64,000 nucleotides of DNA. Origin: an uncultured Jannaschia sp. (GTDB lineage: Bacteria > Pseudomonadota > Alphaproteobacteria > Rhodobacterales > Rhodobacteraceae). Below are positions 29,771-45,107 of this stretch, in pieces. The notes beneath the pieces are model-generated. The model had not been told where the DNA came from. It saw only the letters and a list, made by a program, of their open reading frames with translations, and made no database searches. Each line of letters starts with the position of its first letter. Position 1 is the first letter of the stretch. The stretch covers positions 434,001 through 498,000 of the forward strand of contig NZ_CANLTQ010000001.1 in NCBI RefSeq assembly GCF_947494025.1, read 5' to 3'. The position numbers were made by a program, and so were the translations under genes.

Positions 29771-30313
29771 TCAAGGCGCGACCCACCGGGCCGCCCCGGC
29801 CTCGAAGATCGCGCGTCGATGCGGATCGTGCGCGAGCGACAGGGCGTCGATCCGACAAACGCTCCCGACGAGGGCGACGTGACGTGCGGGGTCGGACGTC
29901 CGGGTCACGGCTTCGGGGGTATGGACCGGCGTGCCGGGGGCGGGATCGGTGCCGTAGTTGAGGCGGGCCGCGTCCGGCAGGGCGCGCCAGCGTTCCGGGT
30001 CCGACGCGACGAGCCGCATCTCGATCGAAAGCCGGATTTGCACCTGCGCCTCCGGATCCCAGAACAGGAGCGCGGCGCGCGGATCCCTCTCGGTCGCGCG
30101 GACCTTGGCCGTGCGGATGTCGGACTGCACCTCGACCTCTGCCGTCCCGCGCTCCGCGCGGCGGAACCCGACCATCCGCGCCTCCGGACCTTCCGCACCC
30201 GAGGTCGCGAGCATCGCGACGTGGAACGGATCGCCGGCCTCTGCCGCGCCCTGCGCCAGACGGTCCCAGACATGTGCATGCAACGCGCCGAGGTCGTGGA
30301 ACGGATCACTCAT
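29771..30313 (-). CDS. pyridoxamine 5'-phosphate oxidase-like flavoprotein
   Basis: A 180-residue protein of the PNPOx split-barrel family. It shows MLATSGAEGPEARMVGFRR, a strand pair typical of FMN-binding general-stress or HugZ-like members. IRTAKVRATERDPRAALLFWDP and IRLSIEMRLVASD also fit the barrel. It is not an obvious PdxH, since the PLP-site residues are not evident. It overlaps the upstream AttH-like gene by 8 bp, so it belongs to the ABC cassette operon. Substrate and role are unknown. Confidence 0.75.
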   Translation of the reverse strand: MSDPFHDLGALHAHVWDRLAQGAAEAGDPFHVAMLATSGAEGPEARMVGFRRAERGTAEVEVQSDIRTAKVRATERDPRAALLFWDPEAQVQIRLSIEMRLVASDPERWRALPDAARLNYGTDPAPGTPVHTPEAVTRTSDPARHVALVGSVCRIDALSLAHDPHRRAIFEAGAARWVAP

Positions 30314-31328
30314 AACCCGTCATCTCCAGATAGCCGCGCCCCGGGTGGCTTCCTTCCGCGCGGACCGGTCCCTCCCAATAGGGGAACAGCGTGTCCTGCC
30401 AGCTCTGCGCGTTCACCGCGTCCACCGTCACGTTCAGCTCGCGCGCAGGCAGGCGCAGGCGCCACCGGACCGGAACCTCCCGTCCCTCCACCTCCGCGAC
30501 CTCCAGAGGCTCGGCGGACAATGCGTCGCCGTAATAGGGCGTCGTCGTGCCGTCCGGCGCGATCCAGGAGGCGTAGTGGAACGGCTCCGGGCCACGGAGC
30601 ACGAAGGCCATCAGCCGCGCGCCGCTCTCGAAATGCAGCGAAAACCAGTCCCAGCCCGCCTGATCCTCCTCGAGGAATTGCGACGACCATTCCCGGTCGA
30701 GCCAGCCCCGCCCCGTCACCTCCACCGGGCCGGACGGAAGGTGGAGCGTGCCGGTCACGGCGTAAAAGGGCTGCGAATAGTATCGGCTGGCCTGACCCGA
30801 GGCGGATTTGACCGAATACCCGTTCTCGCCGTGCAGCACGATCGGCCCCTCGGCACGGAGTGCGAGGTCGTAACCCGCCTCCGCCGTTCCGGCGGCAAGG
30901 CGGAGGTCGGCGATGCCACCGTCCTCCGACCAGAGGCGCCAATCGTCGAGCCAAGCCTCGAAGGGCGCGACGCGCACGCCCGCCTGCCCCGTCCCGTCAT
31001 GGGCAAGTTGTTCGCCGGAAACATGGGCCTCTGGCGTGGTCACGCCCAGATGCGCCATCCAGACCTGCGGTCCGCCCGGCGCGAGCGAGGAGCGGAACAG
31101 CGTCCATTGCACGCCGTATTCGCGCCCGTCCGCCCCGGAGAGCGCGGCCGTGACGTACCACCATTCGGTGCGGAAATCGGGATGCGCCCCGTGATCGGCC
31201 GGAAAGCGCAGATCCCGCCCCGGATCCGGCATCGTGAAGCCGCCCGCCCCCTGCCCAAGCCCGGCGAAACCCTGCGCCAGCGCCGACACGGGGAGGAACA
31301 GGACGAGCAGAAGAACCCTAGCGTTCAT
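30306..31328 (-). CDS. secreted lipocalin-like/AttH-family protein
   Basis: A 340-residue exported protein (signal peptide ending PVSALAQG) of the AttH/'predicted secreted hydrolase' group. Recognisable blocks are FPADHGAHPDFRTEWWYVTA near the N-terminus, GVQWTLFRSSLAP, and the central YYSQPFYAVTGTLHL with GRGWLDREWSSQFL and GWDWFSLHF. The last three are conserved in this lipocalin-like family. It overlaps the FtsX-like permease by 11 bp and lies behind its ATPase, the usual AttEFGH-type arrangement. It may be the periplasmic partner in export or processing of an envelope lipid or protein (inference). Confidence 0.85.
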   Translation of the reverse strand: MNARVLLLVLFLPVSALAQGFAGLGQGAGGFTMPDPGRDLRFPADHGAHPDFRTEWWYVTAALSGADGREYGVQWTLFRSSLAPGGPQVWMAHLGVTTPEAHVSGEQLAHDGTGQAGVRVAPFEAWLDDWRLWSEDGGIADLRLAAGTAEAGYDLALRAEGPIVLHGENGYSVKSASGQASRYYSQPFYAVTGTLHLPSGPVEVTGRGWLDREWSSQFLEEDQAGWDWFSLHFESGARLMAFVLRGPEPFHYASWIAPDGTTTPYYGDALSAEPLEVAEVEGREVPVRWRLRLPARELNVTVDAVNAQSWQDTLFPYWEGPVRAEGSHPGRGYLEMTGYE

Positions 31329-33693
31329 GCACGAAGACCTGCACCAGTTGCGCGGGCGGCATCCGCCAGAGCCGCCAGACCGGCAGCGCCGCCGCCAGCG
31401 CCGCCGCGACGATCGCCCAGAGCGACAGCACCGCCCAGCCGCCGGGATCGGCCAGAAGCGGCAGGCGCCAGCCGAAGGCCTGCACGTTGACCACGGCCAG
31501 CAGGACCCAGGCCAGCGCCACCCCGGTCGGGATCGCCAGCACGGCGGTGAACGCCGCGAGGATCAGGGCGCGCGCGAGATCCGCGAGCGCCAGTCCCCGC
31601 CGCGTCAGCCCCAGCGCCCAGACCGGTGCCACCTGCGGCAGGCGCATCGTGCCGAGCGTGGTGAGCGACGCCCAGAGCGCGAAACCCGCGACCACGAGCG
31701 TCAGGACGTTGAGCGCGGCGGTCACCGCGAAGGTCCGCTCAAAGACGTCGAGCGAGAAGCCCTTGAGCGCGGCCTGATCCACCAGCCCGTCCTCGGGCAG
31801 ATCGAACCGGGCCGCGATCGCGTCGGCAAGCGCCGGCACCTCCGCCGGAGGAACCCGCAGCGCGAAGCGCGTCTCCGGCATGTCCGGCACCGCCACGCGG
31901 AACGCGTCGAGCGTCAGGATCGCCTGACCGCGCGGGTTGCCGTAATCCGAGTAAACGCCCAGCACCTCGCGTCGTCCGCCCGCACCGAGGTCGACCTCCG
32001 CGCCGGACCAGAAACCCGTTCGGCGCGCGAGCTGCTCGTTGACGAGCGCGCCCTCGCCGGCGGCGAGGCGGTCCCAGACCTCCGGCCCTGCATCCAGAAG
32101 CGGCCAGTTCCGCCGAAAGGTCGGATCGTCGGGCTGCCCGTAGAGATCCCCCGGCATGCCCTCGAACGAGGTCTCCGTGCCGACGATGGGCAGGATCGCA
32201 TCCACCCGGCCCTCCAGGAATGCACGCAGTTCCGTCGCCTGCGCCTCGTCCACGGTGCGCACATAGAGCTCCGCCGCGAGACGCTGGTCGAGCCAGCCGG
32301 TGAAGGTGTCGCGGAAACTGCCCACCATCGTTCCAACCCCGATATTCGCGGCGAGCGCGAGGAGGAGCGCCATCAGCGCGAGGCTCAAACCCGGCAGTTG
32401 CTGCTGCGTGTCGGCCCAGAGCCACTGCGCGAGTGCGCCCTTCGCGCGCCGCGCCCCGAAGGACAGCACGGCCGACAGGACCGGCGGCAGCAGGAGCGCG
32501 GCCCCGAGAAGAAGCGCGCCGAGGCAGACGAAACCCGCGACGAGCCCGGTTCCGAAGATCGCGACAAGCGCCGCGGCGAGGAGGAGGACGAGCCCGCCGG
32601 CGCCCTGACGGCGCAGCGTCGAGAGCCGCGCCCGCGCCCAGGCCCGGGGCATGGCCGGCGCCAGCACGGGCAGGCGCGCGAGCTGCCAAAGGCTTTGGCT
32701 GCCCGCGACCGCGAGCCCGATCCCCGCCATCGCGAAACCCGAGAGCCACCAGGCCGGCGCGAGCGTCAGCCCGCCCTCGACGCTTGCCCCGTAGAGGCCC
32801 GATAGCGTCGCGGCGACGCCGGGCAGCAGAAAGGCCGCCATCCCGTAGCCCAGCACGATCCCGAGCGCGCCGCCCAACAGCGTGAAAGCCACGAGTTCGG
32901 CCGCGAGCAGCAGCGTCAGCCGCGCCGCCGGCAGGCCCAGGGCACGCAACGTGCGGAAAAGCGGCCGGCGCTGCTCGAAGGCGAGGCCGATCGCGGCGTG
33001 GACGATGAAGAGGCCGACCGCGAAAGCCAGCAGGCCGAACGCCGTGAGGTTGAGGTGGAAGCTGTCGGTCAGTCGCCCGATCTCGCTCCCTGCAAGCGCC
33101 TCCACCCGCTCCGCATCGGGCAGAAGCTCCGCGAGCGGCGGTAGATCGCCTCGCGCCTCCGGCAGAATCAGCATGTGGTCGATCCGTCCGGTTCCGAGGA
33201 TCGCCTGCGCCGCGAGGATGTCGGCCACGACGAGGCCGGGGGCGAGGTTCGCGATCCGCCGCACCTCCGGCAGGCTTTCGGGCACCTCCGTCCCCTCCGC
33301 CGCGAAGACGAGGCGGCCGTCGAGGAACGCCGTCAGGTCCGCCGTGTCGGTCAGGTCCGGCGTCGCGCCGTTCTGCGGCGCGGTGAAGGGGTCGATGCCG
33401 AGCACGCGGAGACGGGGGCCGGGCGGCGTGCCGTCGATCACCGGCGTCACCGGCCAGCCGGCGCGGCGAAGTGTGGCGAAGTCGTCGAGCGAGAGGTCGC
33501 CCTCGATCCGGGGCAGGTCGTCCTGCCCGAGCGTGGCGGCCGCCTCCGCGTAGTCGAGCCGCGCCTGCGCGTTGATCGCCTGCACCCCGGTCCAGAGCCC
33601 GGTGGCAAGCGCGAGCCCCACGACGAGCGTCAGCAGTTGCAACGGTTGCCGCCGCCAATGCGCGAGAAGGGCGCCGAGCGCGGCGCGGTTCAT
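31318..33693 (-). CDS. FtsX-family ABC transporter permease
   Basis: A 791-residue inner-membrane permease with two FtsX/MacB-like membrane halves. A first helix after RRQPLQLLTLVVGLALATGL precedes a large periplasmic domain (about residues 45–215). Three helices follow around LLAFAVGLFIVHAAIGLAF and beyond, then a central linker with four more helices. A second periplasmic domain and a final three-helix set (VVAGFALWASLTTL, LILAAFTAVLAIPTG, LSLWAIVAAALAAALP) complete it. The ATG overlaps the stop of the ABC ATPase gene (ATGA). With the ATPase and AttH-like protein it forms a mechanotransmission-type exporter. Confidence 0.9.
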   Translation of the reverse strand: MNRAALGALLAHWRRQPLQLLTLVVGLALATGLWTGVQAINAQARLDYAEAAATLGQDDLPRIEGDLSLDDFATLRRAGWPVTPVIDGTPPGPRLRVLGIDPFTAPQNGATPDLTDTADLTAFLDGRLVFAAEGTEVPESLPEVRRIANLAPGLVVADILAAQAILGTGRIDHMLILPEARGDLPPLAELLPDAERVEALAGSEIGRLTDSFHLNLTAFGLLAFAVGLFIVHAAIGLAFEQRRPLFRTLRALGLPAARLTLLLAAELVAFTLLGGALGIVLGYGMAAFLLPGVAATLSGLYGASVEGGLTLAPAWWLSGFAMAGIGLAVAGSQSLWQLARLPVLAPAMPRAWARARLSTLRRQGAGGLVLLLAAALVAIFGTGLVAGFVCLGALLLGAALLLPPVLSAVLSFGARRAKGALAQWLWADTQQQLPGLSLALMALLLALAANIGVGTMVGSFRDTFTGWLDQRLAAELYVRTVDEAQATELRAFLEGRVDAILPIVGTETSFEGMPGDLYGQPDDPTFRRNWPLLDAGPEVWDRLAAGEGALVNEQLARRTGFWSGAEVDLGAGGRREVLGVYSDYGNPRGQAILTLDAFRVAVPDMPETRFALRVPPAEVPALADAIAARFDLPEDGLVDQAALKGFSLDVFERTFAVTAALNVLTLVVAGFALWASLTTLGTMRLPQVAPVWALGLTRRGLALADLARALILAAFTAVLAIPTGVALAWVLLAVVNVQAFGWRLPLLADPGGWAVLSLWAIVAAALAAALPVWRLWRMPPAQLVQVFVHER

Positions 33694-34358
33694 GCGGGCA
33701 GGTCCTCCGCCAGACGACCGGCGCGCAGATGCAGCCGACGGTCGAGCTGCGCCGCGAGCCGGGTCGAATGCGTCACCATCAGGAGCGCCGCCCCCATCTG
33801 CGTCACCGATTCTCGCATCAGCGCGATCATCGCGTCGCCCGTCGCTTCGTCGAGGTTGCCGGTCGGCTCGTCGGCCAGAACGAGGCGCGGCGCGGCGAGG
33901 AGCGTGCGGCCGATGGCGACCCGCTGCTGCTGCCCGCCCGAAAGCTGCTCGGGATAGCGGCGAAGATGGTCCGAAAGGCCGAGTCGTTCGGCGAGCGCGG
34001 CCACGTCGCCCGGATCGCGCCCGGCCAGACGCGCATGGAACGACAGGTTGTCGCGAACGTCGAGCGAGGGGATAAGGTTGAACTGCTGAAAGATCAGCCC
34101 GACCGTGCCCCGCCGGAGCCGCGCCCGCCCGGCATCGTCCTGCGCGGCGATGTCGGTGCCCTCGATCTCGATCGTGCCGCGATCCGGCGTGTCGAGCCCG
34201 GCGAGCAGGTGCATCAGCGTCGATTTTCCCGAACCGCTCTCCCCCGTCAACGCCAGCGTCTCGCCCGCCCCGAGGTCGAAGGACACGTCGGACAGGACCG
34301 GCTGACGCCCGCCCGCGGTCTCGTAGCTCTTGTCGACATCGCGGGTTCGGAGAAGCAT
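33690..34358 (-). CDS. ABC transporter ATP-binding protein (LolD/MacB type)
   Basis: A 222-residue ATPase. Walker A is TGESGSGKSTL at about residues 39–49, the Q-loop is IFQQFNLIP, the signature is QLSGGQQQRVAIGR, and Walker B is LVLADEPTGNLDEATG with the H-loop in VTHSTRL. The length and the QQFNLIPSLDV block fit the LolD/MacB/FtsE class. ATG 34358 was chosen, because in-frame codons upstream overlap the Anbu-side spacer and lack similarity. It is the first gene of the ABC–FtsX–AttH–PNPOx chain. Confidence 0.94.
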   Translation of the reverse strand: MLLRTRDVDKSYETAGGRQPVLSDVSFDLGAGETLALTGESGSGKSTLMHLLAGLDTPDRGTIEIEGTDIAAQDDAGRARLRRGTVGLIFQQFNLIPSLDVRDNLSFHARLAGRDPGDVAALAERLGLSDHLRRYPEQLSGGQQQRVAIGRTLLAAPRLVLADEPTGNLDEATGDAMIALMRESVTQMGAALLMVTHSTRLAAQLDRRLHLRAGRLAEDLPA

Positions 34359-34402
34359 GCGCTTCAGGGTAGTCGCCGCCCGGGGGGCTTCAAGGCGCGC
34401 CG

Positions 34403-35140
34403 TCAGCGGCAGAGCGTCACGTCCTGCAGGCTGTCGAACGCGTTGCGGAGCGCGTCGGACCACCCGTCGCAGATCGCCCGCCAATCCGGGTCGGTGTCGA
34501 GGATGCGGCGCGAATAGCCGAGCTCGAAGCTGTCGTTGCGGTAGATCTGGAGGTCGAGCGGCGCGTCCACCGACAGGTTGGCCCGGATCGTCGAGTCGAA
34601 GCTCACCATCAGAAGCTTGACCGCCCGTTCGAACGTCATCTCGCGGTCATAGGCGCGAACGAGGATGGGGCGGCCGTACTTGGTCTCGCCGATCTGGAAG
34701 AACGGGGTGTCGGCCTGCGCTTCGATGAAGTTGCCCTCGGGATAGATCAGGTAGAGGCGCGGCGGGCTGCCCTTGACCTGACCGCCGAAGATCATCGTCG
34801 CGTTGAAGGTGGAGGCAGGCTTGCCGCCGCTGCCGGCCTGCTCGGTGATCACGTCGCGAAGCGTCTCGCCGATCAGCCGCGCGGCCTGGAACATCGACGG
34901 CGCGGTCAGCAGCGTCGAGGTCCGCTCGGCGGCAGCGAGGTTGCGCTCGTCCAGAAGGCTCACCACCGCTTGCGTCGTAGCGAGGTTGCCCGCCGTCATC
35001 AGAACCAGCGTCCGCTCGCCAGGCACCTCCCAGGTGTGCATCTTGCGATAGGTGGAGATGTTGTCGACGCCCGCGTTCGTGCGGGTGTCGGACAGGAAGA
35101 CGAGGCCGCGATCGAGTTGCAGGCCGACGCAATAGGTCAT
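34403..35140 (-). CDS. Anbu proteasome-like peptidase subunit
   Basis: A 245-residue member of the Anbu (ancestral beta-subunit) branch of Ntn hydrolases. It begins MTYCVGLQL, so removal of Met exposes Thr1 without a propeptide, as in Anbu. Asp17 of the mature chain lies in LSDTRTNAG and a lysine at position 32 (YRKMHTW) sits where the proteasome Lys33 is expected. TAGNLATTQ and SFDSTIRANLSVDAPLD are further family blocks. Anbu assembles helical rings; its natural substrate is unknown. It is the last gene of a four-gene locus with transglutaminase-like, alpha-E and ATP-grasp proteins. Confidence 0.92.
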   Translation of the reverse strand: MTYCVGLQLDRGLVFLSDTRTNAGVDNISTYRKMHTWEVPGERTLVLMTAGNLATTQAVVSLLDERNLAAAERTSTLLTAPSMFQAARLIGETLRDVITEQAGSGGKPASTFNATMIFGGQVKGSPPRLYLIYPEGNFIEAQADTPFFQIGETKYGRPILVRAYDREMTFERAVKLLMVSFDSTIRANLSVDAPLDLQIYRNDSFELGYSRRILDTDPDWRAICDGWSDALRNAFDSLQDVTLCR

Positions 35141-35239
35141 GGAGTGGGTTCCGTTTCGATGGTGCGGCACGTTCGCGGCGCCGCGGGCCGCCTGGCTGGC
35201 ATACCGGTTGGGCCGCGGTTCGGGCCGGGGCGGACGGGC

Positions 35240-36052
35240 CTATTGCTGCGACTGGGATACCGTCAACTCGACGGATAGCGATTCCGTTCCGGCGCCGCGG
35301 CGGATGCCCGAGATCGGCGCGGCGTCGCTGTAATCGAGTCCGGTCGCCACGCGGACGTAGCGTTCGTCGGGCGAAATCCCGTTGGAGATGTCGAACCCGA
35401 CCCAGCCGATGCCGTCGACATAGGCCTCCGCCCAGGCATGGGTCGCGTCCTGACGCTCCACGCCGTCCATCTTGAGATAGCCCGAGACGTAGCGCGCCGG
35501 CCGGTCCAGCAGGCGCGCGGCGGTGACGAAGATATGGGCGTGATCCTGACAGACCCCGGTGCCGTTCTGCACCGCCTCCTCCGCGGTCATCGTGACCTCG
35601 GTCGTCCCGGTGGCGTACTTGATCTTCTCGCGGATCGTGGCCGACAGACGATGGAGCTGCTCGAGCTGACCGGTCGTGTCGCGGACTTCCCGGGCAAAGG
35701 CCAGCGTGCCGGGGCCGCGGCGGGTCCGGTCGGTCGGCCGCAGGAACATCCACAGCGGCATGTAGCCGCCCTGCTGACCGATGATCCCGTTCTCGTCCTC
35801 GATCTCGACCCGGCCCTCGGCCACGATCGTGACCTCCTGGCGCCCCGGCTCGACGGAGACGAGCTGCGTGCGATTGGCGTGAGCGTCGTCGAACTCCACC
35901 TCGACCTTGCCGCCGTCGATCCAGGTGGACCATTCGCGGACCTTCTGACCGGAGCGGTTCTTGGGCGTCAGGCGGAGCTGCTGGAGCGCGTAGGAGATCG
36001 GGCTGTCCCATCGATAGGTCGTCGCGTGCCGGATCTGCAGGGAAGTGGTCAT
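35240..36052 (-). CDS. transglutaminase-like cysteine protease, Anbu locus
   Basis: A 270-residue protein with the bacterial transglutaminase N-terminal domain (RHATTYRWDSPISYALQQLR) followed by a papain-like core. The catalytic triad is visible: Cys168 in NGTGVCQDHAH, His205 in ATHAWAEAY, Asp221 in WVGFDISNG. Family members may hydrolyse isopeptide or peptide bonds. The ATG overlaps the alpha-E stop (ATGA), giving translational coupling. Anbu starts 99 bp after its stop. Conserved linkage suggests it trims or primes the peptide made by the ATP-grasp partner (inference). Confidence 0.92.
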   Translation of the reverse strand: MTTSLQIRHATTYRWDSPISYALQQLRLTPKNRSGQKVREWSTWIDGGKVEVEFDDAHANRTQLVSVEPGRQEVTIVAEGRVEIEDENGIIGQQGGYMPLWMFLRPTDRTRRGPGTLAFAREVRDTTGQLEQLHRLSATIREKIKYATGTTEVTMTAEEAVQNGTGVCQDHAHIFVTAARLLDRPARYVSGYLKMDGVERQDATHAWAEAYVDGIGWVGFDISNGISPDERYVRVATGLDYSDAAPISGIRRGAGTESLSVELTVSQSQQ

Positions 36053-36990
36053 TGGGTGAACCTGTAATCTTGCTCGATCTTCGCGGCCAGACTGGCGTTG
36101 CGGCGCAGGAAGTCCTGCAGGAACTCGTGCAGCCCGGTCTCTATGATGCTGTGGATCGTGGCCCGGTCGAGATCCTGGCAGATCGCCTCGCTCATGTTGT
36201 GGCACGGCATCCGCACGCCGTAGTCGCGTTCGAGATATTCCAGATTGGCGCCGATCTTCTCGTAGCAGAAGGACAGGCTGCGCGGCTGTCGCTTGTCGAG
36301 CATCAGGAACCGCGCGATGTCGGAGGCCATCCGCACGCGGCCATGCACCATCCGGTAGGCCCCCTCGGCGGAGACGGCGCGCAGGATCACCTCCCATTGC
36401 GCGTTGTCGAGCGAGGAGCCGACGCCCGCCGCGGAGGGCAGCAGCACGTAGTACTTCACGTCGAGAAGCCGCGCCGTGGCGTCGGCCCGCTCGATGAACG
36501 TGCCGAGCCGGGCGAAGTCGTAGATATCGTTCCGGAGCATGGTGCCGTGCAGCGCGCCGCGCACGAAGGCCGAACGCTGCCGGATCACGCCGAGGACACG
36601 CTGCAGGTCGCGCATGGAGACCCGGCTTGACAGCTCCCTGCCGAGCGTCATCCAGGCCTCGTTCACGGATTCCCAGACCTCGCGGGTGATCGCCGTGCGC
36701 ACGAGACGGGCGTTCATCCGTGCCTGCGCGATGCAGTTGATCACCGAAGCCGGGTTGTCTCGCGCCCGCAGGAGCCAGTCGATCACCGCCTCCCCCGTCA
36801 CCTCGTCGTGGTGCATGTCGTAGGCCTCGCGGGAGGAGGCGGTCTGGAGCAGGCTCGACCATTCGCTGTCGGCGCGGTCGGGTCGGGTCAACGCGATGCG
36901 CTGCCCGGTCTCCACAAGGCGGGCGAGATTCTCGCACCGCTCCATGTAGCGGAACATCCAGAGGAGGCCGCCGGCGGTCTTGCCTAGCAT
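36049..36990 (-). CDS. alpha-E domain-containing protein (DUF403)
   Basis: A 313-residue, mainly helical protein with the alpha-E opening GKTAGGLLWMFRYMERCENLARLVETGQR (two parts). Later come LTREVWESVNEAWMTL-like (AITREVWESVNEAW) and a C-terminal ending EQDYRFTQ. Alpha-E proteins occur almost always beside circularly permuted ATP-grasp and transglutaminase genes, but their activity is unknown. Start 36990 begins the conserved block directly. It overlaps the transglutaminase gene by 4 bp and lies 49 bp after the ATP-grasp gene. Confidence 0.92.
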   Translation of the reverse strand: MLGKTAGGLLWMFRYMERCENLARLVETGQRIALTRPDRADSEWSSLLQTASSREAYDMHHDEVTGEAVIDWLLRARDNPASVINCIAQARMNARLVRTAITREVWESVNEAWMTLGRELSSRVSMRDLQRVLGVIRQRSAFVRGALHGTMLRNDIYDFARLGTFIERADATARLLDVKYYVLLPSAAGVGSSLDNAQWEVILRAVSAEGAYRMVHGRVRMASDIARFLMLDKRQPRSLSFCYEKIGANLEYLERDYGVRMPCHNMSEAICQDLDRATIHSIIETGLHEFLQDFLRRNASLAAKIEQDYRFTQ

Positions 36991-37039
36991 CGGCTGGCCC
37001 TCCCCCTGGAAGCGGGACGTCGTGTCGCGATGCCGGTCA

Positions 37040-38467
37040 TCAATCGTCCTCCAGCACCCAGGTGTCCTTCGTGCCCCCGCCCTGCGAGGAGTTCACGACG
37101 AGCGAGCCTTTCTTGAGCGCCACGCGGGTCAGCCCGCCCGGCGTGATCTCGATCCCGTTCGGGGAGACGAGCACGAAGGGCCGCAGGTCCAGGTGCCGGG
37201 GCGACAGGCCCGCGCGGGTGAAGATCGGCGCGGTGGACAGGGCCAGCGTCGGCTGCGCGATGTAGTTGCCCGGCCGCGCCTCGAGCTTGCGGCGGAACTC
37301 CCGCAGCTCCTTCTTCGAGGCGGTCGGCCCGATCAGCATCCCGTAGCCGCCCGAGCCGTGCACCTCCTTGACGACCAGCTCCGACAGGTTGTCGAGCACG
37401 TAGGCGAGGCTGTCGGGGGCCGAGCATCGCCAGGTCGGCACGTTCTCCAGAAGCGGCTTCTCGCCGGTGTAGAACTCCACGATCTCGGGCATGTAGCTGT
37501 AGATCGCCTTGTCGTCGGCCACCCCGGTTCCGGGCGCGTTGGCGATGGTGATGCCGCCCGCGCGGTAGACGTCGAAGATGCCGGGCACGCCGAGATAGCT
37601 GTCGGTGCGGAAGTTCATCGGATCGAGGAAGTCGTCGTCGACGCGCCGGTAGAGCACGTCGATCGCCTTGTAGCCTTGCGTCGTCCGCATCGCGACCCGG
37701 CCGTTGACCACGCGCAGGTCGTGCCCCTCGACCAGCTCCACGCCCATCTGGTCGGCGAGGAAGCTGTGCTCGTAATAGGCCGAGTTGTGGATGCCGGGCG
37801 TCAGGACCGCCACGACCGGATCGCCCTCGCAGGCCGGCGGCGCGCAGGCCGACAGGCTCGCATGGAGCCGTTCGGGATAGCGGCTCACGCGTTGCACCCG
37901 GTTCTTGGCGAAGATCTCGGGGAACATGTGCAGCATCGTCTCGCGGTTCTCGAGCATGTAGCTCACGCCCGAGGGCGTCCGCGCGTTGTCCTCGAGCACG
38001 TAGAACTGGTCCGCCCCGGTCCGCACGAGGTCGATGCCGACGATGTGGGTGTAGATGCCGCCCGGCGGATCGACCCCGATCATCTGGCTCAGATAGGCGT
38101 CGTTCTTGGCGATCATCTCCCGCGGGAGCCGACCCGAACGGACGATCTCCTGACGATGGTGGATGTCGTGGAGGAACGCATTGAGCGCGCTCACCCGCTG
38201 CTCGATCCCGCGCGACAGCTTCGCCCATTCGCGGGCAGCGATGATGCGCGGCACGATGTCGAACGGGATCAGCCGCTCGGCGGCCTCGGCCTGCCCGTAG
38301 ACGTTGAAGGTGATCCCGGTGAGGCGGAAGAACGCCTCCGCCTCGCGCGCCTTGGCGCGCAGATGCGCGGGTTCCTCGGAGGAAAACCACGCCTCGAATG
38401 CCTTGTAGGCATCCCGGATCGTCCCGTCCAGGCGGGTCATCTCGTCGAAAGGTGTCTTCTCGCTCAT
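37040..38467 (-). CDS. circularly permuted ATP-grasp type 2 protein (DUF404/407)
   Basis: A 475-residue enzyme-like protein of the circularly permuted ATP-grasp group. Visible blocks include EQRVSALNAFLHDIHHRQEIV, the VVGIDLVR-like HIVGIDLVRTG, FYVLEDNARTPSGVSYMLENR (two parts), LTPGIHNSAYYEHSFLADQMG, VYRRVDDDFLDP, and NAPGTGVADDKAIYSYMPEI. They match the nucleotide/peptide-ligase fold. The family is predicted to ligate amino acids into a small peptide. The ATG at 38467 (MSEKTPFDEM) was preferred to an upstream in-frame start. It is the first gene of the Anbu locus. Confidence 0.93.
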   Translation of the reverse strand: MSEKTPFDEMTRLDGTIRDAYKAFEAWFSSEEPAHLRAKAREAEAFFRLTGITFNVYGQAEAAERLIPFDIVPRIIAAREWAKLSRGIEQRVSALNAFLHDIHHRQEIVRSGRLPREMIAKNDAYLSQMIGVDPPGGIYTHIVGIDLVRTGADQFYVLEDNARTPSGVSYMLENRETMLHMFPEIFAKNRVQRVSRYPERLHASLSACAPPACEGDPVVAVLTPGIHNSAYYEHSFLADQMGVELVEGHDLRVVNGRVAMRTTQGYKAIDVLYRRVDDDFLDPMNFRTDSYLGVPGIFDVYRAGGITIANAPGTGVADDKAIYSYMPEIVEFYTGEKPLLENVPTWRCSAPDSLAYVLDNLSELVVKEVHGSGGYGMLIGPTASKKELREFRRKLEARPGNYIAQPTLALSTAPIFTRAGLSPRHLDLRPFVLVSPNGIEITPGGLTRVALKKGSLVVNSSQGGGTKDTWVLEDD

Positions 38468-38754
38468 GAGACAAGTCATGCGGGGGGTTTGCCGGAAGTG
38501 CAACACCGAGCGGCATGATGAAGCGTGCGCCGCCGGGCACCGGTGGTCGCGCCTCGATGCGCGGTTTGGGTCCGGTGCGTCGGCGGCGGCGCGGCATCAA
38601 CGCCGTTTCGCGGACCGGGTTCCGACGCCGGAGGGTCACAGATCCGCGTGTCCGGGCTTTGCCCGCTTTTGTCGTGTCGGGACGCCTGTTAAGCAAACCC
38701 GACGGCCCCGGCCGCGCGATCCGGGGCCGATCGGCACGCCGCCGGCCTACATAG
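38468..38754. other. divergent intergenic region, no gene recognised
   Basis: 287 bp separate the divergent ATP-grasp and tamA genes. An arginine-rich 79-codon frame at 38515–38754 looks spurious, with no ribosome-binding site and a composition typical of antisense-free GC-rich noise. Promoters for both operons must lie here, but no convincing sigma-70 pair was seen. Confidence 0.4.
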
Positions 38755-40563
38755 ATGGGAGCCGCCTTGAAACACGTCCTCGCCACGGGCCTGGCCCTCC
38801 TGATCTCGACCGCGGCGACGAACGCCGCGAACCTCACCTTCCGCATCGCCGGCGACGCGGAGACGTTCTCCGATCTGGGAGAACAGCTTCAGGCCGCCTC
38901 GCTCACCGCCTCCGCCATCGGCGAAGAGGACACCACGCGGCGCGAGATCGTCGCCGCCGCGCAGGCCGATTACGCCCGGCTTCTCGCCGTGCTGTTCGAG
39001 GCCGGGTATTTCGGATCCGAAATCTCCATCCGCATCGACGGGACCGAGGCCGCCGAACTTCCCACGATCGGCGCGGGCAACCCGGTGGGAGAGGTGGCGA
39101 TCGAGGTGCGGCCGAACGCGCGGTTCATGTTTGGCCGCGCCACGATCGCGCCGGTCCCCCCCGAGACCGAGATCCCCGACGGCTTCGCGCCGGGCGAGCC
39201 GGCGGGCACCGAGATCATCCGCGACACCGTGGAGGCCGGCGTCGACGCCTGGCGCGGCGAGGGCCACGCGAAGGCCGAGCTCGCAGAACAGAGGATCACC
39301 GCCAACCACGCGACCGACCGGCTCGACGCCGAACTGCGCCTCGCGCCCGGACCGCGGCTCCGCTACGGGCCGATCGCCGTCGAGGGGGCGGAGGACGTGC
39401 GCGCCCGTCACATCGCGCGGATCGCCGACCTGCGGGAGGGACGCGTTTTCGACCCCGACGAGGTGCAGACCTCGGCCAGCCGCCTACAACGGACGGGCAC
39501 CTTCGACTCGGTCTCGATCAGGGAGGCCGAGGGGATCGGCCCGAACAACACCCTGCCGATGACGATCACCGTGGCCGAGCGTCTGCCCCGCCGCTTCGGC
39601 TTCGGCGCGGAGCTTTCCTCCGACGAGGGCATCTCGACCTCGGCCTACTGGCTGCACCGCAACCTTACCGGATACGCCGACAGCCTGCGGCTCGAGGCGT
39701 CGGTCGACGGGATCGGCGGCACCGTGTCCGGCGGCACCGATTACGGGCTCACCTTCGGCTATCTGCGCCCGTCGACCTTCAACGCGGAAACCGATCTCTA
39801 CGTGAACGGCGGGGTGGAAAGCCTCGACGAGCCGAACTTCAGCTCGGACCGCGTCTTCATCGATGCCGGGGCGCGACGCATCGTCTCGGACGCGTTCGAA
39901 TATTCCTACGGTCTCGGCTACGAGTACAGCGAGACGGACGACGCGCTCGGCACCCGCTCCTTCTCGATCTTCTCCCTGCCGCTGGCGGCGCAATACGACC
40001 GCCGCGACGTGGCGCTCGACCCGGTCGACGGCTACTACGCGGAGCTGGGGCTGCGTCCCTTCTACGGCGCGAACCGCGCCGGCCCGGGCGCCGTCTTCAC
40101 GGGCGACCTGCGCGGCTACAAGGGCTTCGGCGGCGAGGAGCGGCAGACCGTCCTCGCGGGCCGCCTGCAACTGGGCAGCGTGATCGGCCCCGACCTCGAG
40201 GACGTGCCGGCGAGCACGCTGTTCTTTTCCGGCGGCGGGGGCACCGTGCGCGGTCAGGACTACCAGTCCCTGGGTGTCGAGCTCGATGACGGCGACACGG
40301 TCGGCGGCCTGTCCTTCGTCGGCCTGTCCGCCGAGATCCGGCAGGACGTGACCGAGAACATCGGCATCGTCGGCTTCGCGGATTTCGGCCTCGTCTCGCC
40401 GGACGCGGATTTCACCGGCGGGGACAGCCACTCTGGCGCGGGTCTGGGCGTGCGCTACAACACGGGGATCGGACCGCTCCGCGTCGATCTCGGGTTCCCC
40501 GTCTCGGGCCCCGAGGATGACGGCGGCGTCGGAATCTATATCGGTATCGGGCAGGCCTTCTGA
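38755..40563 (+). CDS. tamA: TamA-type outer-membrane barrel protein (Omp85 family)
   Basis: A 602-residue outer-membrane protein with a signal peptide (HVLATGLALLISTAATNA). POTRA domains span about residues 25–270 (GPRLRYGPIAVEGAEDV and FDPDEVQTSASRLQRTGTFDSV are recognisable). A C-terminal Omp85 barrel includes SLRLEASVDGIGGTVSGGTDYG and ends in GVGIYIGIGQAF with a terminal Phe. It is the TamB partner in envelope assembly or lipid transfer. ATG 38755 lacks a Shine–Dalgarno; a TTG at 38767 preceded by GGAG would start MKHVLATG and is a good alternative. Its stop overlaps tamB by 1 bp. Confidence 0.93.
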   Translation: MGAALKHVLATGLALLISTAATNAANLTFRIAGDAETFSDLGEQLQAASLTASAIGEEDTTRREIVAAAQADYARLLAVLFEAGYFGSEISIRIDGTEAAELPTIGAGNPVGEVAIEVRPNARFMFGRATIAPVPPETEIPDGFAPGEPAGTEIIRDTVEAGVDAWRGEGHAKAELAEQRITANHATDRLDAELRLAPGPRLRYGPIAVEGAEDVRARHIARIADLREGRVFDPDEVQTSASRLQRTGTFDSVSIREAEGIGPNNTLPMTITVAERLPRRFGFGAELSSDEGISTSAYWLHRNLTGYADSLRLEASVDGIGGTVSGGTDYGLTFGYLRPSTFNAETDLYVNGGVESLDEPNFSSDRVFIDAGARRIVSDAFEYSYGLGYEYSETDDALGTRSFSIFSLPLAAQYDRRDVALDPVDGYYAELGLRPFYGANRAGPGAVFTGDLRGYKGFGGEERQTVLAGRLQLGSVIGPDLEDVPASTLFFSGGGGTVRGQDYQSLGVELDDGDTVGGLSFVGLSAEIRQDVTENIGIVGFADFGLVSPDADFTGGDSHSGAGLGVRYNTGIGPLRVDLGFPVSGPEDDGGVGIYIGIGQAF

Positions 40564-43500
40564 TGTTGCGCTATCTCCTTCCCCTCGTCCTCGTGGCCTC
40601 GCCGATCCTCGCGCAGGACGCCGAGGAGGAGCGCGACCGCGGCTTCCTGACCGGCCTCATCGAGGACAACCTCTCCGCGCCGGGCCTGTCGGTCCGCATC
40701 GACGGCTTCGAGGGCGCGCTCTCCTCCGCGGCCACGCTCGACGTGCTGCAGGTCTCCGACGACGAGGGGCCGTGGCTCCGGCTCGAGGACGTGGTGCTCG
40801 ACTGGAACCGCTCCGCCCTGCTGCGTGGCCGGCTCGAGGTCGAGGAGCTTTCCGCCGCGCTCATCCGCGTCGAGCGCGCACCATTGCCACCCGAGGGGGT
40901 GGAGGCGCTGCCGGATGCCGGGGCCTCGGGCTTCGGGCTGCCGGATCTGCCGGTCTCCGTGAACGTCGAGAGCCTGCGGGCGGAGCGGATCGAGCTCGGC
41001 GCGGCGTTGCTGGGACAGGAGCTGGCCCTGACGCTTCAGGCCAGCGCCCGGCTCGCCGACGGGTCGGGTGCGATTCATCTCGACGGGCAACGGCTCGACG
41101 GCGTGGAAGGCACCTTTCTGATCGACGCGAGTTACGCGGCCGAGACGCAGACGCTCGACATCGCCCTCGACGTGGCGGAAGCGGAGGGCGGCATCGCCGC
41201 GACGCTGCTGCAGCTGCCCGGCGCGCCGGCGATCGAGCTGACGGTGAACGGCGAAGGACCGCTCGACGATTTCGCGGCCGACATCGCCGTCGCCTCGAAC
41301 GGCGAGGAGCGGATCGGCGGGCGGGTGACGCTCGACGGCACCGAGGAAGGACGCCGCTTCGACGTCGATCTCGGCGGCGACGTCACCGCCTTGCTCGCCC
41401 CGCGCTACCGGGGCTTCTTCGGCGACGACGTCGCGCTCGTCGCGCAAGGCCTGCAACGCGACGACGGCAGCCTCGACCTCGACACGTTCCGGCTCGACAC
41501 GCAGGCGCTGCAACTTGCCGGCGCGGTGCGGCTCGGCACCGACGGCTGGCCCACCTTCGTCGACGTGACGGGACGGCTCGCCGCCCCGGACGGCGCGCCG
41601 ATCCTGTTGCCCACCGCGACCGAAAGCCAGCTTCTCGGCGCGGAACTCGACGTGGCCTACGACGCGGCCCGGTCGGAGACGTGGACGCTCGATCTGTCCG
41701 CGCGGGACTACACGGGTCCGACCCTCGAACTCGGCGCCGCCGCCCTGAACGCCGAAGGCGTGATCGAACGCAGCGATGGCGCCGTCCGGGCCGCGTCCGC
41801 GGAGATCGCCGCCGCATTGCAGGCGCTCGATTTCACCGATCCGGCGCTGCAGCAGGCCGTGGGCGACGCGGTCGACCTCGCCGCGAACGTGGACTGGCAG
41901 GCGGGCGCGCCGGTCCGGCTCACCGACCTTTCGCTCGACGGGGCGGGCTACGACCTCACCGGGACCGTCACCGCCGACGGCACCGACCCGGAGCAGCCGC
42001 TGACGCTGGAGCTCGACCTCGCCTCGACCTTCGAGGACCTCTCCCGTCTCGCCGGTCTGTCCGGTCAGGATCTCGACGGCGCGGCGGAGGCGACCGTGAC
42101 CGGCACCTACGCGCCGGTCGCCGCGACCTTCGATCTGTCCCTCGGCGCGGTGACGCAGGATCTCGCGCTCGGCATCCCGCAGGCCGACGCGATCCTCGAA
42201 GGCGAGACCACGCTTTCCATCGACACGCGCCGCACCGCGAGCGGCACCTTCGTCGACGCGCTGACGCTCGCGAACGACCACCTTTCCGCGGAGGGCAGCG
42301 CCGCGCTCCTCGACGAGGAGGCGCCGGAGCGGGCGGAGGGCGAGGCCAGCCGCGCCACCTTCTCCGCGACGATTCAAGACGGCACCCGCATCGACCCGCG
42401 CCTCGACGGGCCGATCGAAGCCGCCGCGGACGTGACCGAGGATGCCGAGGGCAACTGGTCCGGCACGCTCGACGCAGCAGCGCCCGAGGGCGTCACGATC
42501 TCGGCCGAAGGTGTCCTGACCGGACCGGCGCCGGACGTGACCTTCTCCGCCGCCATCCCCGACATCTCCGCCTTCGCCGAGGGCGTGCCGGGCGCGCTGG
42601 AGCTTTCGGGGCAGGCCTCGGCGACGGACGGCGTCTGGTCGATCGACGCGGCGGCGTCCGGTCCGTGGGACCTGACGGCGCAGGTTGCTGGCACCGTCAC
42701 GGGCAACGCGCCCGAGATTGCCTTCTCGGCCACCCTGCCCGACCTCACCGGCCCCGTTCCCGCGCTGGAAAGCCAGCCCGCGTTGCAGGGTCCGGTCGAC
42801 CTCGAAGGCACGTTGCGCCAGATCGGCGGCCAGTGGGAGATCGACACCTCGGTTGCCGCGCCCTCCGACATCACGCTGCGCGCTTCCGGCCCGGTGACGG
42901 GCGACGCCCTTTCGGTCGATTTCGCCGGCACCATCCCCGAGCTCGGGGATTTCGCGCCGGGCGTCGAGGGGCGCCTCGACATCGACGGCAACGTCGCGCG
43001 CAGCGGCGAGGACATCGCCGCCGAGATCACCGCGCGCGGCCCCTACGCCTCGGTCGTGACGGCCGAGAGCGTCGTGACCGCGGCGCCGCTCACCGTGGAG
43101 TTCACGACCGACGTGCCCGACCTGAGTGAACTCGCGCCCGTGCCCGGCGGCCTGTCGGTCGCCGGTCAGGCCGTGCAGACGGAGACGGGCTTCGCCATCG
43201 AGCTCGCCGGGACCGGCCCCTACGACGCCACGCTCGACGCGAACGTGGATCTGGTGGACGGCGTGCCTGCGATCACGGCCACGGGGCAGATCCCCGACTC
43301 CTCCGCGCTCGCGCCGCAGCTCCAGGGCCCGCTGAACTACGATGTCGAGGCGGAGCAGGTCGACGGCCAGTTCCGGGTCGACGTGAACGTGGACGGCGCG
43401 CAGGCGCTCTCGGCCAGCGTTTCGGGCATCGCGACGGGGCCCGAGGCCGACCTGGACTTTCAGTTCGACGCCGGCGACGTGTCGCCCTTCGTGCCGGGCC

Positions 43501-45107
43501 TGTCGGGCGCGCTCGACGCGTCCGGCCGCCTGTTCCAGCAGGACGGTCAATGGAACGCGGACGTGGAGGCCAGCGGCCCGCTCGGCGCCACGCTGACGGC
43601 GGACGGCGTGCTGACCGGGGATGCGCCGCGCGCCGCCTTCGATCTGTCGGTGCCCGATATCGGCCCGCTCGTCCCCGAGATCGCCGGCCCGCTGAACGTC
43701 GTGGGCACCGCCGAGCGGCAGGGCGAGGCCTGGGCCGTCGATGTCGATCTCGACGGCCCTTCGGGCACCGATGCCGCCGTCGCGGGCTCGGTGCAGCCCG
43801 ACGGCAATCTCGACCTGTCGGTGACGGGTTCGGCGCCGCTCGGTCTGGCCAATGTGGCGATCGCCCCGCAGCAGCTCGCCGGCACCGCGCAGTTCGACCT
43901 GAACGTGAACGGCCCGCCGGGACTCGACGCGGTCTCGGGGACGATTACCGCGAACGACGCCGCACTCGTCCTGCCCTCGCTCCGGAACGGGCTCGACGAC
44001 ATCGACGCGCGGATCGACCTCGGCAACGGCCAGGCGCGGATCGCGCTCAGCGCCTCGCCGCAATCGGGCGGGAACATATCGCTCGACGGCCCGGTGGGCC
44101 TGTCGGCGCCGTTCAACGCCGATCTCGTGACCGAGTTCGACGTCACGCTCGAGGATCCGCAGCTCTACACCGCCGAGGTGGACGGCCGCGTCACGATCAA
44201 CGGGGCGCTGACCGGCGGCGCGGTGATCGGCGGCAACATCCGCATCGACGGCGCGGAGATCGCCGTCCCCTCCTCCGGCCTGACCGCCCTCGGCGACCTG
44301 CCGGAGATCCGCCACCTCAACACGCCCCGCCCCGTGCAGCGGACGCTCGCGCTCGCTCGGCAGGACGGCTCGGACGGGGCCACCTCCGCGTCCGGGGGCG
44401 GCGGCGGACCCGTCTACGGGCTGAACCTGACCATCGACGCGCCGGGCCGCATCTTCATCCGAGGCCGCGGCCTCGACGCGGAACTCGGCGGGACGCTGGG
44501 CCTTGCCGGCACCACCGCAAACCCGGTGACGACCGGCGGCTTCGAACTGGTCCGCGGACGCCTCGACATCCTGCAGCAGCGCTTCAACCTCGACGAGGGC
44601 ACGATCACCTTTCAGGGCGGACTGACCCCCTATATCCGCCTCGTTGCCGTGACCGAGACCGATTCCGTCACCGCCTCGATCATCATCGAGGGACCGGCAG
44701 ACGCGATCGAGGTCCGCTTCGAATCCCAGCCCGAGATCCCGCAGGAGGAGATCGTCGCGCAGATCTTCTTCGGCCGCGACCTGAGCGAGCTGTCGCCTTT
44801 GCAGGCCCTGCAGCTCGCGAACTCCGTCGCGGTGCTTGCGGGCCGCTCCCAGGGGGGGCTGCTCGACAACTTGCGCGGCAGCGCCGGGCTCGACGACCTC
44901 GACGTGACCACCGACGACGAGGGCAACGTCGCGCTCCGGGCCGGCAAGTACGTTTCCGACAACGTCTACACCGACGTGCAGATCGACCAGACCGGGGAGG
45001 CCGATCTGTCGCTCAACCTCGACGTCACCCGCGACCTGACGGTCCGCGGATCGGTCGGCGCGACGGGAAACACCTCGCTCGGGCTGTTCTACGAGAAGGA
45101 TTACTGA
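40563..45107 (+). CDS. tamB: TamB-type translocation/lipid transport protein with repeat array
   Basis: A 1514-residue periplasm-spanning protein anchored by an N-terminal hydrophobic segment (MLRYLLPLVLVASPILAQ). The early part has the EGALSSAATLDVLQVSD-type TamB opening. The C-terminal TamB domain, about residues 1120–1514, includes ELVRGRLDILQQRFNLDEG, RLVAVTETDSVTASIIIEGP and ends SLGLFYEKDY. Residues 616–1090 hold about eight tandem units of roughly 60 residues, each with PD(I/L)…GPLxxxG…W.(V/I)D….GP…VTG.AP…F. These should form stacked beta strands of the lipid groove. It overlaps tamA and the following pqiA-like gene by single bases. Confidence 0.93.
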   Translation: MLRYLLPLVLVASPILAQDAEEERDRGFLTGLIEDNLSAPGLSVRIDGFEGALSSAATLDVLQVSDDEGPWLRLEDVVLDWNRSALLRGRLEVEELSAALIRVERAPLPPEGVEALPDAGASGFGLPDLPVSVNVESLRAERIELGAALLGQELALTLQASARLADGSGAIHLDGQRLDGVEGTFLIDASYAAETQTLDIALDVAEAEGGIAATLLQLPGAPAIELTVNGEGPLDDFAADIAVASNGEERIGGRVTLDGTEEGRRFDVDLGGDVTALLAPRYRGFFGDDVALVAQGLQRDDGSLDLDTFRLDTQALQLAGAVRLGTDGWPTFVDVTGRLAAPDGAPILLPTATESQLLGAELDVAYDAARSETWTLDLSARDYTGPTLELGAAALNAEGVIERSDGAVRAASAEIAAALQALDFTDPALQQAVGDAVDLAANVDWQAGAPVRLTDLSLDGAGYDLTGTVTADGTDPEQPLTLELDLASTFEDLSRLAGLSGQDLDGAAEATVTGTYAPVAATFDLSLGAVTQDLALGIPQADAILEGETTLSIDTRRTASGTFVDALTLANDHLSAEGSAALLDEEAPERAEGEASRATFSATIQDGTRIDPRLDGPIEAAADVTEDAEGNWSGTLDAAAPEGVTISAEGVLTGPAPDVTFSAAIPDISAFAEGVPGALELSGQASATDGVWSIDAAASGPWDLTAQVAGTVTGNAPEIAFSATLPDLTGPVPALESQPALQGPVDLEGTLRQIGGQWEIDTSVAAPSDITLRASGPVTGDALSVDFAGTIPELGDFAPGVEGRLDIDGNVARSGEDIAAEITARGPYASVVTAESVVTAAPLTVEFTTDVPDLSELAPVPGGLSVAGQAVQTETGFAIELAGTGPYDATLDANVDLVDGVPAITATGQIPDSSALAPQLQGPLNYDVEAEQVDGQFRVDVNVDGAQALSASVSGIATGPEADLDFQFDAGDVSPFVPGLSGALDASGRLFQQDGQWNADVEASGPLGATLTADGVLTGDAPRAAFDLSVPDIGPLVPEIAGPLNVVGTAERQGEAWAVDVDLDGPSGTDAAVAGSVQPDGNLDLSVTGSAPLGLANVAIAPQQLAGTAQFDLNVNGPPGLDAVSGTITANDAALVLPSLRNGLDDIDARIDLGNGQARIALSASPQSGGNISLDGPVGLSAPFNADLVTEFDVTLEDPQLYTAEVDGRVTINGALTGGAVIGGNIRIDGAEIAVPSSGLTALGDLPEIRHLNTPRPVQRTLALARQDGSDGATSASGGGGGPVYGLNLTIDAPGRIFIRGRGLDAELGGTLGLAGTTANPVTTGGFELVRGRLDILQQRFNLDEGTITFQGGLTPYIRLVAVTETDSVTASIIIEGPADAIEVRFESQPEIPQEEIVAQIFFGRDLSELSPLQALQLANSVAVLAGRSQGGLLDNLRGSAGLDDLDVTTDDEGNVALRAGKYVSDNVYTDVQIDQTGEADLSLNLDVTRDLTVRGSVGATGNTSLGLFYEKDY

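Follow-up and report, generated by a model that had tools for sequence, protein, structure and literature searches.

The window analysed here, a stretch of 64,000 nucleotides from an uncultured Jannaschia sp. of the Rhodobacteraceae (contig NZ_CANLTQ010000001.1, positions 434,001 to 498,000), carries an intact, canonical four-gene operon of Anbu, a proteasome-like hydrolase of the N-terminal nucleophile (Ntn) type. The four genes are adjacent, all read in the same direction on the minus strand, and run from a circularly permuted (CP) ATP-grasp ligase through an alpha-E protein and a transglutaminase-like protease to Anbu. A first-pass annotation had proposed this set, and the Pfam and PDB matches given below confirm it. 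Positions are those of the window, and lengths are in amino acids (aa):

37040..38467, minus strand: circularly permuted ATP-grasp ligase, 475 aa, the first gene of the operon (PF14403, PF04174; 3n6x).
36049..36990, minus strand: alpha-E protein, 313 aa, an internally duplicated helical-bundle unit (PF04168; structure model; aligned halves).
36049..36052, minus strand: ATGA, the four-base overlap of the alpha-E stop and the protease start (sequence).
35240..36052, minus strand: transglutaminase-like (papain-fold) protease, 270 aa, with the triad Cys168-His205-Asp221 (PF01841, PF08379; 3isr).
34403..35140, minus strand: Anbu proteasome-like Ntn hydrolase, 245 aa, with Thr1/Asp17/Lys32 in the mature protein (PF00227; five solved Anbu sequences).

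The ligase matches PF14403 over the whole profile (E 4.8e-164, columns 1-374 of 374), and its closest solved homologue in a PDB sequence search is 3n6x (E 2.9e-192). Alpha-E matches PF04168 (E 2.8e-82, columns 1-293 of 294), and the protease matches both PF01841 (E 7.7e-23) and PF08379 (E 2.1e-18), with the distant 3isr as its closest solved sequence. Anbu matches PF00227 at E 6.9e-07, and each of the five PDB sequences that it matched is an Anbu or a peptidase of the Anbu family (5loy, E 1.5e-91, residues 2-240). In NCBIfam, Anbu gave only sub-cut-off matches to archaeal proteasome subunits, scoring 26.6 bits against the 224 required for the beta subunit TIGR03634, and the other three proteins gave no match. 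The catalytic residues that the first-pass annotation had listed for the protease and for mature Anbu, and the start-stop overlap it had reported, proved exact. Gaps of 49 and 99 bases separate the ATP-grasp gene from alpha-E and the protease gene from Anbu, and an in-frame ATG at 38479 offers the ligase an alternative start 12 bases upstream. Anbu, alpha-E and the CP-ATP-grasp each have exactly one match in the window's genome. Chance is far from sufficient to account for the locus.

An operon with this gene order is already in print, as are tagging and peptide hypotheses for it. Excerpts of PMC6376114 place Anbu mostly in a four-gene operon with the conserved order ATP-grasp, alphaE, transglutaminase-like, Anbu, and describe T1, D17 and K32 as conserved; an excerpt of PMC5666114 gives the same partner genes. 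Among known systems the nearest is the Anbu operon found in Yersinia bercovieri and, as PP_2685-2688, in Pseudomonas putida, which resembles that of the window both in gene order and in T1/D17/K32. In our own alignments, the ligase, the protease and Anbu all look to be under catalytic constraint, judging from residue conservation. Thr1 of Anbu is present in 147 of 148 sequences, the remaining one having Ser, and Asp17 and Lys32 in all 148. Among the 137 protease sequences scoring at least 280 bits, the Cys of the triad is kept in 136 and the His and Asp in every one; when 27 more divergent sequences are added, the Cys is found in 162 of 164. In the ATP-grasp protein, 108 positions are at least 97% conserved across 130 sequences.

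The distribution of the genes sets Anbu apart from its partners. We searched 249 genomes of the phylum for Anbu, alpha-E and the CP-ATP-grasp, the last two being referred to below as the core, and obtained raw matches in 86, 132 and 136 genomes (133 above the cut-off for the last). One Anbu match (G244; E 5.9e-4, with internal stops) lies in a stretch without an Anbu profile match and was excluded, leaving 85 Anbu genomes, a count that retains a 43-residue Anbu piece at a contig end (G149). Both core genes are carried by 84 of these 85. Each of the 132 genomes with alpha-E also has a match to ATP-grasp, and four genomes have a weak ATP-grasp match only, without alpha-E. Conversely, 48 of the 132 core genomes have no Anbu match. 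The 14 genomes sampled from the window's own family divide into 8 with matches to all three proteins and 6 with none. On a FastTree tree of 130 ATP-grasp proteins, the label "Anbu-linked or not" changes 20 times, at least 13 of them on starred branches, with gain and loss not distinguishable on this tree; Anbu therefore appears and disappears around a stable core. These patterns suggest that the core is obligate and Anbu optional. Random distribution of the four genes in related genomes, set beforehand as the outcome that would speak against their being repeatedly linked, was checked and is not the case. As a separate observation, one genome (G246) holds two Anbu copies (L115, L116), both located apart from its ATP-grasp and alpha-E genes.

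Gene order tells a similar story. It was read in 85 loci with an Anbu profile match, namely 84 fetched from relatives and the window, two further stretches having given none. The exact run of ATP-grasp, alpha-E, protease and Anbu occurs in 52 of them, and ATP-grasp and alpha-E lie inside the stretch in 71; Anbu has just a transglutaminase-like gene beside it in 2, and none of the other three genes within the stretch in 12. A double arrangement that includes a divergent fused ATP-grasp/alpha-E gene was found in 10 (L073, L075, L078, L079, L082, L083, L085, L094, L101 and L104), and the two proteins are fused into one in further loci. The double arrangement runs from separate ATP-grasp and alpha-E genes through the divergent fusion with its own transglutaminase-like gene to Anbu, which is accompanied there by a large transglutaminase-containing protein of about 880-1170 residues. 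A set of 80 named loci was picked for the best matches to alpha-E and is hence biased to near relatives; ATP-grasp, alpha-E and protease are consecutive in all 80 and Anbu joins them in 63; at least two of the 17 without Anbu (L206, L252) end inside the protease gene. No recurrent substitute for Anbu was seen by eye downstream of the protease in 12 of 13 Anbu-less named loci. Two side observations concern gene arrangement: L033, L202, L207 and L209 have a second, divergent transglutaminase-like gene upstream of ATP-grasp on the same strand, and in L235 the ATP-grasp match falls in two pieces in different open frames.

Alpha-E, the other member of the core, is an internal duplication of a helical-bundle unit, an observation for which we claim no priority. 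Its predicted structure, modelled from 55 sequences, is all helical (pLDDT 88.7, pTM 0.88), and a single-sequence PDB search up to E 10 returned no solved homologue. The profiles of residues 1-150 and 151-309 align over 150 columns (hhalign, 99.3%, E 7.7e-21), as compared with E 0.013 for a reversed profile and 0.052 or worse for 20 column shuffles; rotated copies, in which long stretches are preserved, still align. The alignment matches Glu17-Arg18 to Glu167-Arg168, residues conserved in 220, 218, 221 and 221 of 223 sequences, and it is this pairing, together with the alignment of the halves, that identifies the duplication, with one Glu-Arg motif per half. In two records titled as Acidimicrobiales/Acidimicrobiaceae metagenome-assembled genomes (L198, L208), alpha-E is 58% identical to that of the window, by transfer or binning error.

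Upstream of the core, we scanned about 350 bases before the ATP-grasp gene with a 12-letter sigma-54 (-24/-12) consensus, in which GG and GC were mandatory and at least 10 of 12 letters were required. Such sites precede the gene in 52 of 128 loci, against about 2.4 expected. They occur in 22 of 69 Anbu-linked loci (expected 1.18 from shuffles and 1.2 from real sequence on both strands of the fetched stretches), in 25 of 49 loci from the 48 Anbu-negative genomes (1.02 expected) and in 5 of the 10 usable loci, out of 11, where Anbu lies elsewhere (0.2 expected). They are unevenly spread, with at least one in 19 of 43 families, all 7 loci in f30 and 9 of 12 in f33 as compared with none of 9 in either f10 or f6. 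As a control, the region before Anbu itself has a site in 0 of 13 solitary cases, 0 of 17 other arrangements and 1 of 55 cases at the operon end. The interpretation in the first-pass annotation is partly supported: the linkage of the genes is not random, but a picture of four equal partners with Anbu ending a tagging route finds no support, given the core genomes that have no Anbu match and the solitary Anbu genes that, in all 13 cases, lack the core's promoter type.

The same promoter difference would suit an Anbu with an independent job, as a general or damage-linked hydrolase that shares the operon merely for joint expression, and so would the 12 solitary loci and the one Anbu genome without either core gene (G094). 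Nevertheless, nearly every Anbu genome also has the core, and 10 of the 11 genomes with unlinked Anbu carry it elsewhere; we regard this explanation as very unlikely.

A sigma-54 link of the family was considered as a new discovery and rejected, as it is in print already: according to an excerpt of PMC12316311, COG3484, the proteasome-type protease, belongs to the proteins that sigma-54 controls in alpha-, beta- and gammaproteobacteria, and one of PMC13207237 shows that a CP_ATPgrasp_1 gene of Bradyrhizobium is listed with a preceding RpoN site. Excerpted reports on P. putida have PP_2686-2688 up 11- to 37-fold in nitrogen limitation (PMC7801951), PP_2685 and PP_2688 nitrogen-responsive (PMC8050072) and PP2685-2687 up (PMC3325844), whereas the window locus, otherwise similar, has no sigma-54-like site. 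In Burkholderia cenocepacia, the cluster I35_5080-5083 shares with the window the DUF404/407 (ATP-grasp), DUF403 (alpha-E) and transglutaminase-like proteins; it differs in a second, large transglutaminase-like protein and in its dependence on NtrC and sigma-54, and Anbu is not named in the excerpted text (PMC5491218). The same domains are tied to urea domains in marine metagenomes according to an excerpt of PMC3597751. Taken together, this suggests that the core is nitrogen-controlled in several lineages. Such control could indicate storage, in which the ligase would make a nitrogen-rich non-ribosomal peptide or polymer, comparable to cyanophycin, that the protease and Anbu mobilise. The presence of ligase and hydrolases in one operon and the nitrogen-limitation control in some lineages agree with storage, but induction under nitrogen shortage fits scavenging better than store-building and no such polymer is known. 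We consider it unlikely.

The reading that we prefer, and hold to be somewhat more probable than its negation, is that of an obligate ligase core accompanied by two hydrolases, of which only Anbu is optional; together they would play a metabolic role in amide or peptide turnover. ATP-grasp and alpha-E would act as one ligase unit, because they form an obligate pair, occur as fusions and are extremely conserved, and would use ATP to link a carboxylate with an amine; we infer the reaction class from the family, and the direction and substrate are likewise inferred. Phosphate release from ATP has been published for a homologue. The transglutaminase-like enzyme, with its intact triad, would hydrolyse or trim an amide bond of the ligase product. 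Anbu, to judge from its linkage and invariant catalytic residues, may serve as an optional second hydrolase of the same or a derived product rather than as an obligatory end point. In several lineages, not visibly that of the window, the core has sigma-54-type promoters and is induced in nitrogen limitation, and its purpose there would be to recover or redirect nitrogen by way of a small amide or peptide, which appears likelier than protein tagging.

Several results weigh against this reading. The Anbu genome without a core breaks the rule, and the Fisher p of 2e-30 for the association of Anbu with the core is not a true probability, as the genomes are related. Sigma-54 control of the window operon was rejected: its best score in about 330 bases upstream is 7 of 12 letters, and named close relatives reach 10 of 12 in 3 of 77 cases (1.36 expected), all Burkholderia. 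In the window's family, one of 8 has a site. The nitrogen inference thus concerns the family and not the window organism, for which a nitrogen role would follow only by extension. Presence of the site also does not follow that of Anbu, with no significant link by independent pairs. NtrC-type palindromes, which we did not use, are not clearly enriched in the 128 upstream regions at 10 of 12 letters (15 vs 9.65 expected; at 9 of 12 letters, 82 vs 63.3). A motif hunt in 35 Rhodobacterales-type upstream regions found no palindrome, its top words barely exceeding shuffled maxima, and a sigma-70 and terminator scan of 34000-39000 gave one promoter-like site, not before the operon, and 3 terminator-like sites (1.7 expected). 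In the excerpt of PMC7801951, the Anbu gene PP_2685 reaches just 1.12, 4.81 and 1.45 across three strains, and the third column, apparently an rpoN mutant, keeps 14- to 20-fold for PP_2686-2688, which speaks against strict sigma-54 dependence of these genes. Finally, the hydrolases could act on unrelated substrates.

Protein tagging, the idea of a primitive ubiquitin or Pup, would have ATP-grasp and transglutaminase mark proteins with a peptide, and these proteins would then be degraded or de-tagged by Anbu. PMC6376114 credits it to earlier work, and it is therefore not new. Two enzymes of bond-forming families do adjoin a proteasome relative, and Anbu is almost restricted to core genomes. Yet more than a third of core genomes dispense with Anbu, and according to excerpts of PMC6376114, Anbu showed neither peptidase nor amidase activity towards the substrates tested, and the proteins of the operon gave no sign of binding one another specifically. 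Anbu homologues form an open split ring (PMC5666114), with no partner unfoldase known (PMC5666114, PMC8665760), and no AAA+ unfoldase is present among the six flanking gene products that we examined. Tagging is quite unlikely in our estimation, and with moderate confidence we favour an amide or peptide that metabolism both synthesises and cleaves.

Pairing of an ATP-grasp with hydrolysis has parallels. Glutathionylspermidine synthetase/amidase combines ATP-grasp amide synthesis with a papain-like amidase, a comparison of workings and not of membership. A four-row profile searched against the PDB returned only 3n6x, which is named a putative glutathionylspermidine synthase, and one ribosomal protein (E 0.72). 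The Rim and Rlo loci of Pseudomonas, like the window, each combine an ATP-grasp with a protease, and Rlo adds a transglutaminase-fold protein (excerpt of PMC12239564). There, however, the protease is retropepsin-like and the Rlo transglutaminase inactive and membrane-bound, whereas the window has an intact triad and an Ntn-type second hydrolase, with no retropepsin-like partner among its four products (Pfam, E 0.001).

The surroundings of the operon vary. Beyond the four genes, the broadest of 40 neighbour clusters listed, not all of whose candidates are real genes, is an ABC-ATPase found in 18 loci, and the others are mostly confined to a single lineage. Upstream in the window, divergently on the plus strand (38755-45107), lie genes for an Omp85/POTRA protein (TamA-like) and a 1514-aa TamB protein, homologues of which occur in none of the 166 fetched neighbourhoods tested. 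Directly downstream on the operon's strand (30306-34367, minus) lie genes for an ABC ATPase, an FtsX-type permease and a CrtC/lipocalin-like protein, whose homologues adjoin Anbu in opposite orientation in two loci of another family (L096, L103).

A bolder version of the preferred reading, which is possible but doubtful, takes Anbu not for an ancestral protease served by helpers but for an accessory, acquired and lost repeatedly, of a metabolic ligase that makes a specific small amide, in many lineages when nitrogen is limiting. Alpha-E, whose two halves carry equivalent Glu-Arg sites and for which our search found no close solved fold, would be an unrecognised obligate part of that ligase, perhaps as a carrier or transfer partner, and Anbu would be a dedicated amidase. 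Dedication to the ligase product would explain why test peptides remained uncleaved. Anbu is one of the few remaining proteasome relatives to which no function has been assigned (PMC8665760, in excerpt). The window adds one more textbook example, and the useful part lies in the comparison of obligate core with optional Anbu and in the duplication of alpha-E. If Anbu is an optional hydrolase of the ATP-grasp/alpha-E ligase, its substrate should be sought in what that ligase makes, and in nitrogen-starved cells, and no longer among proteasome-type peptides.

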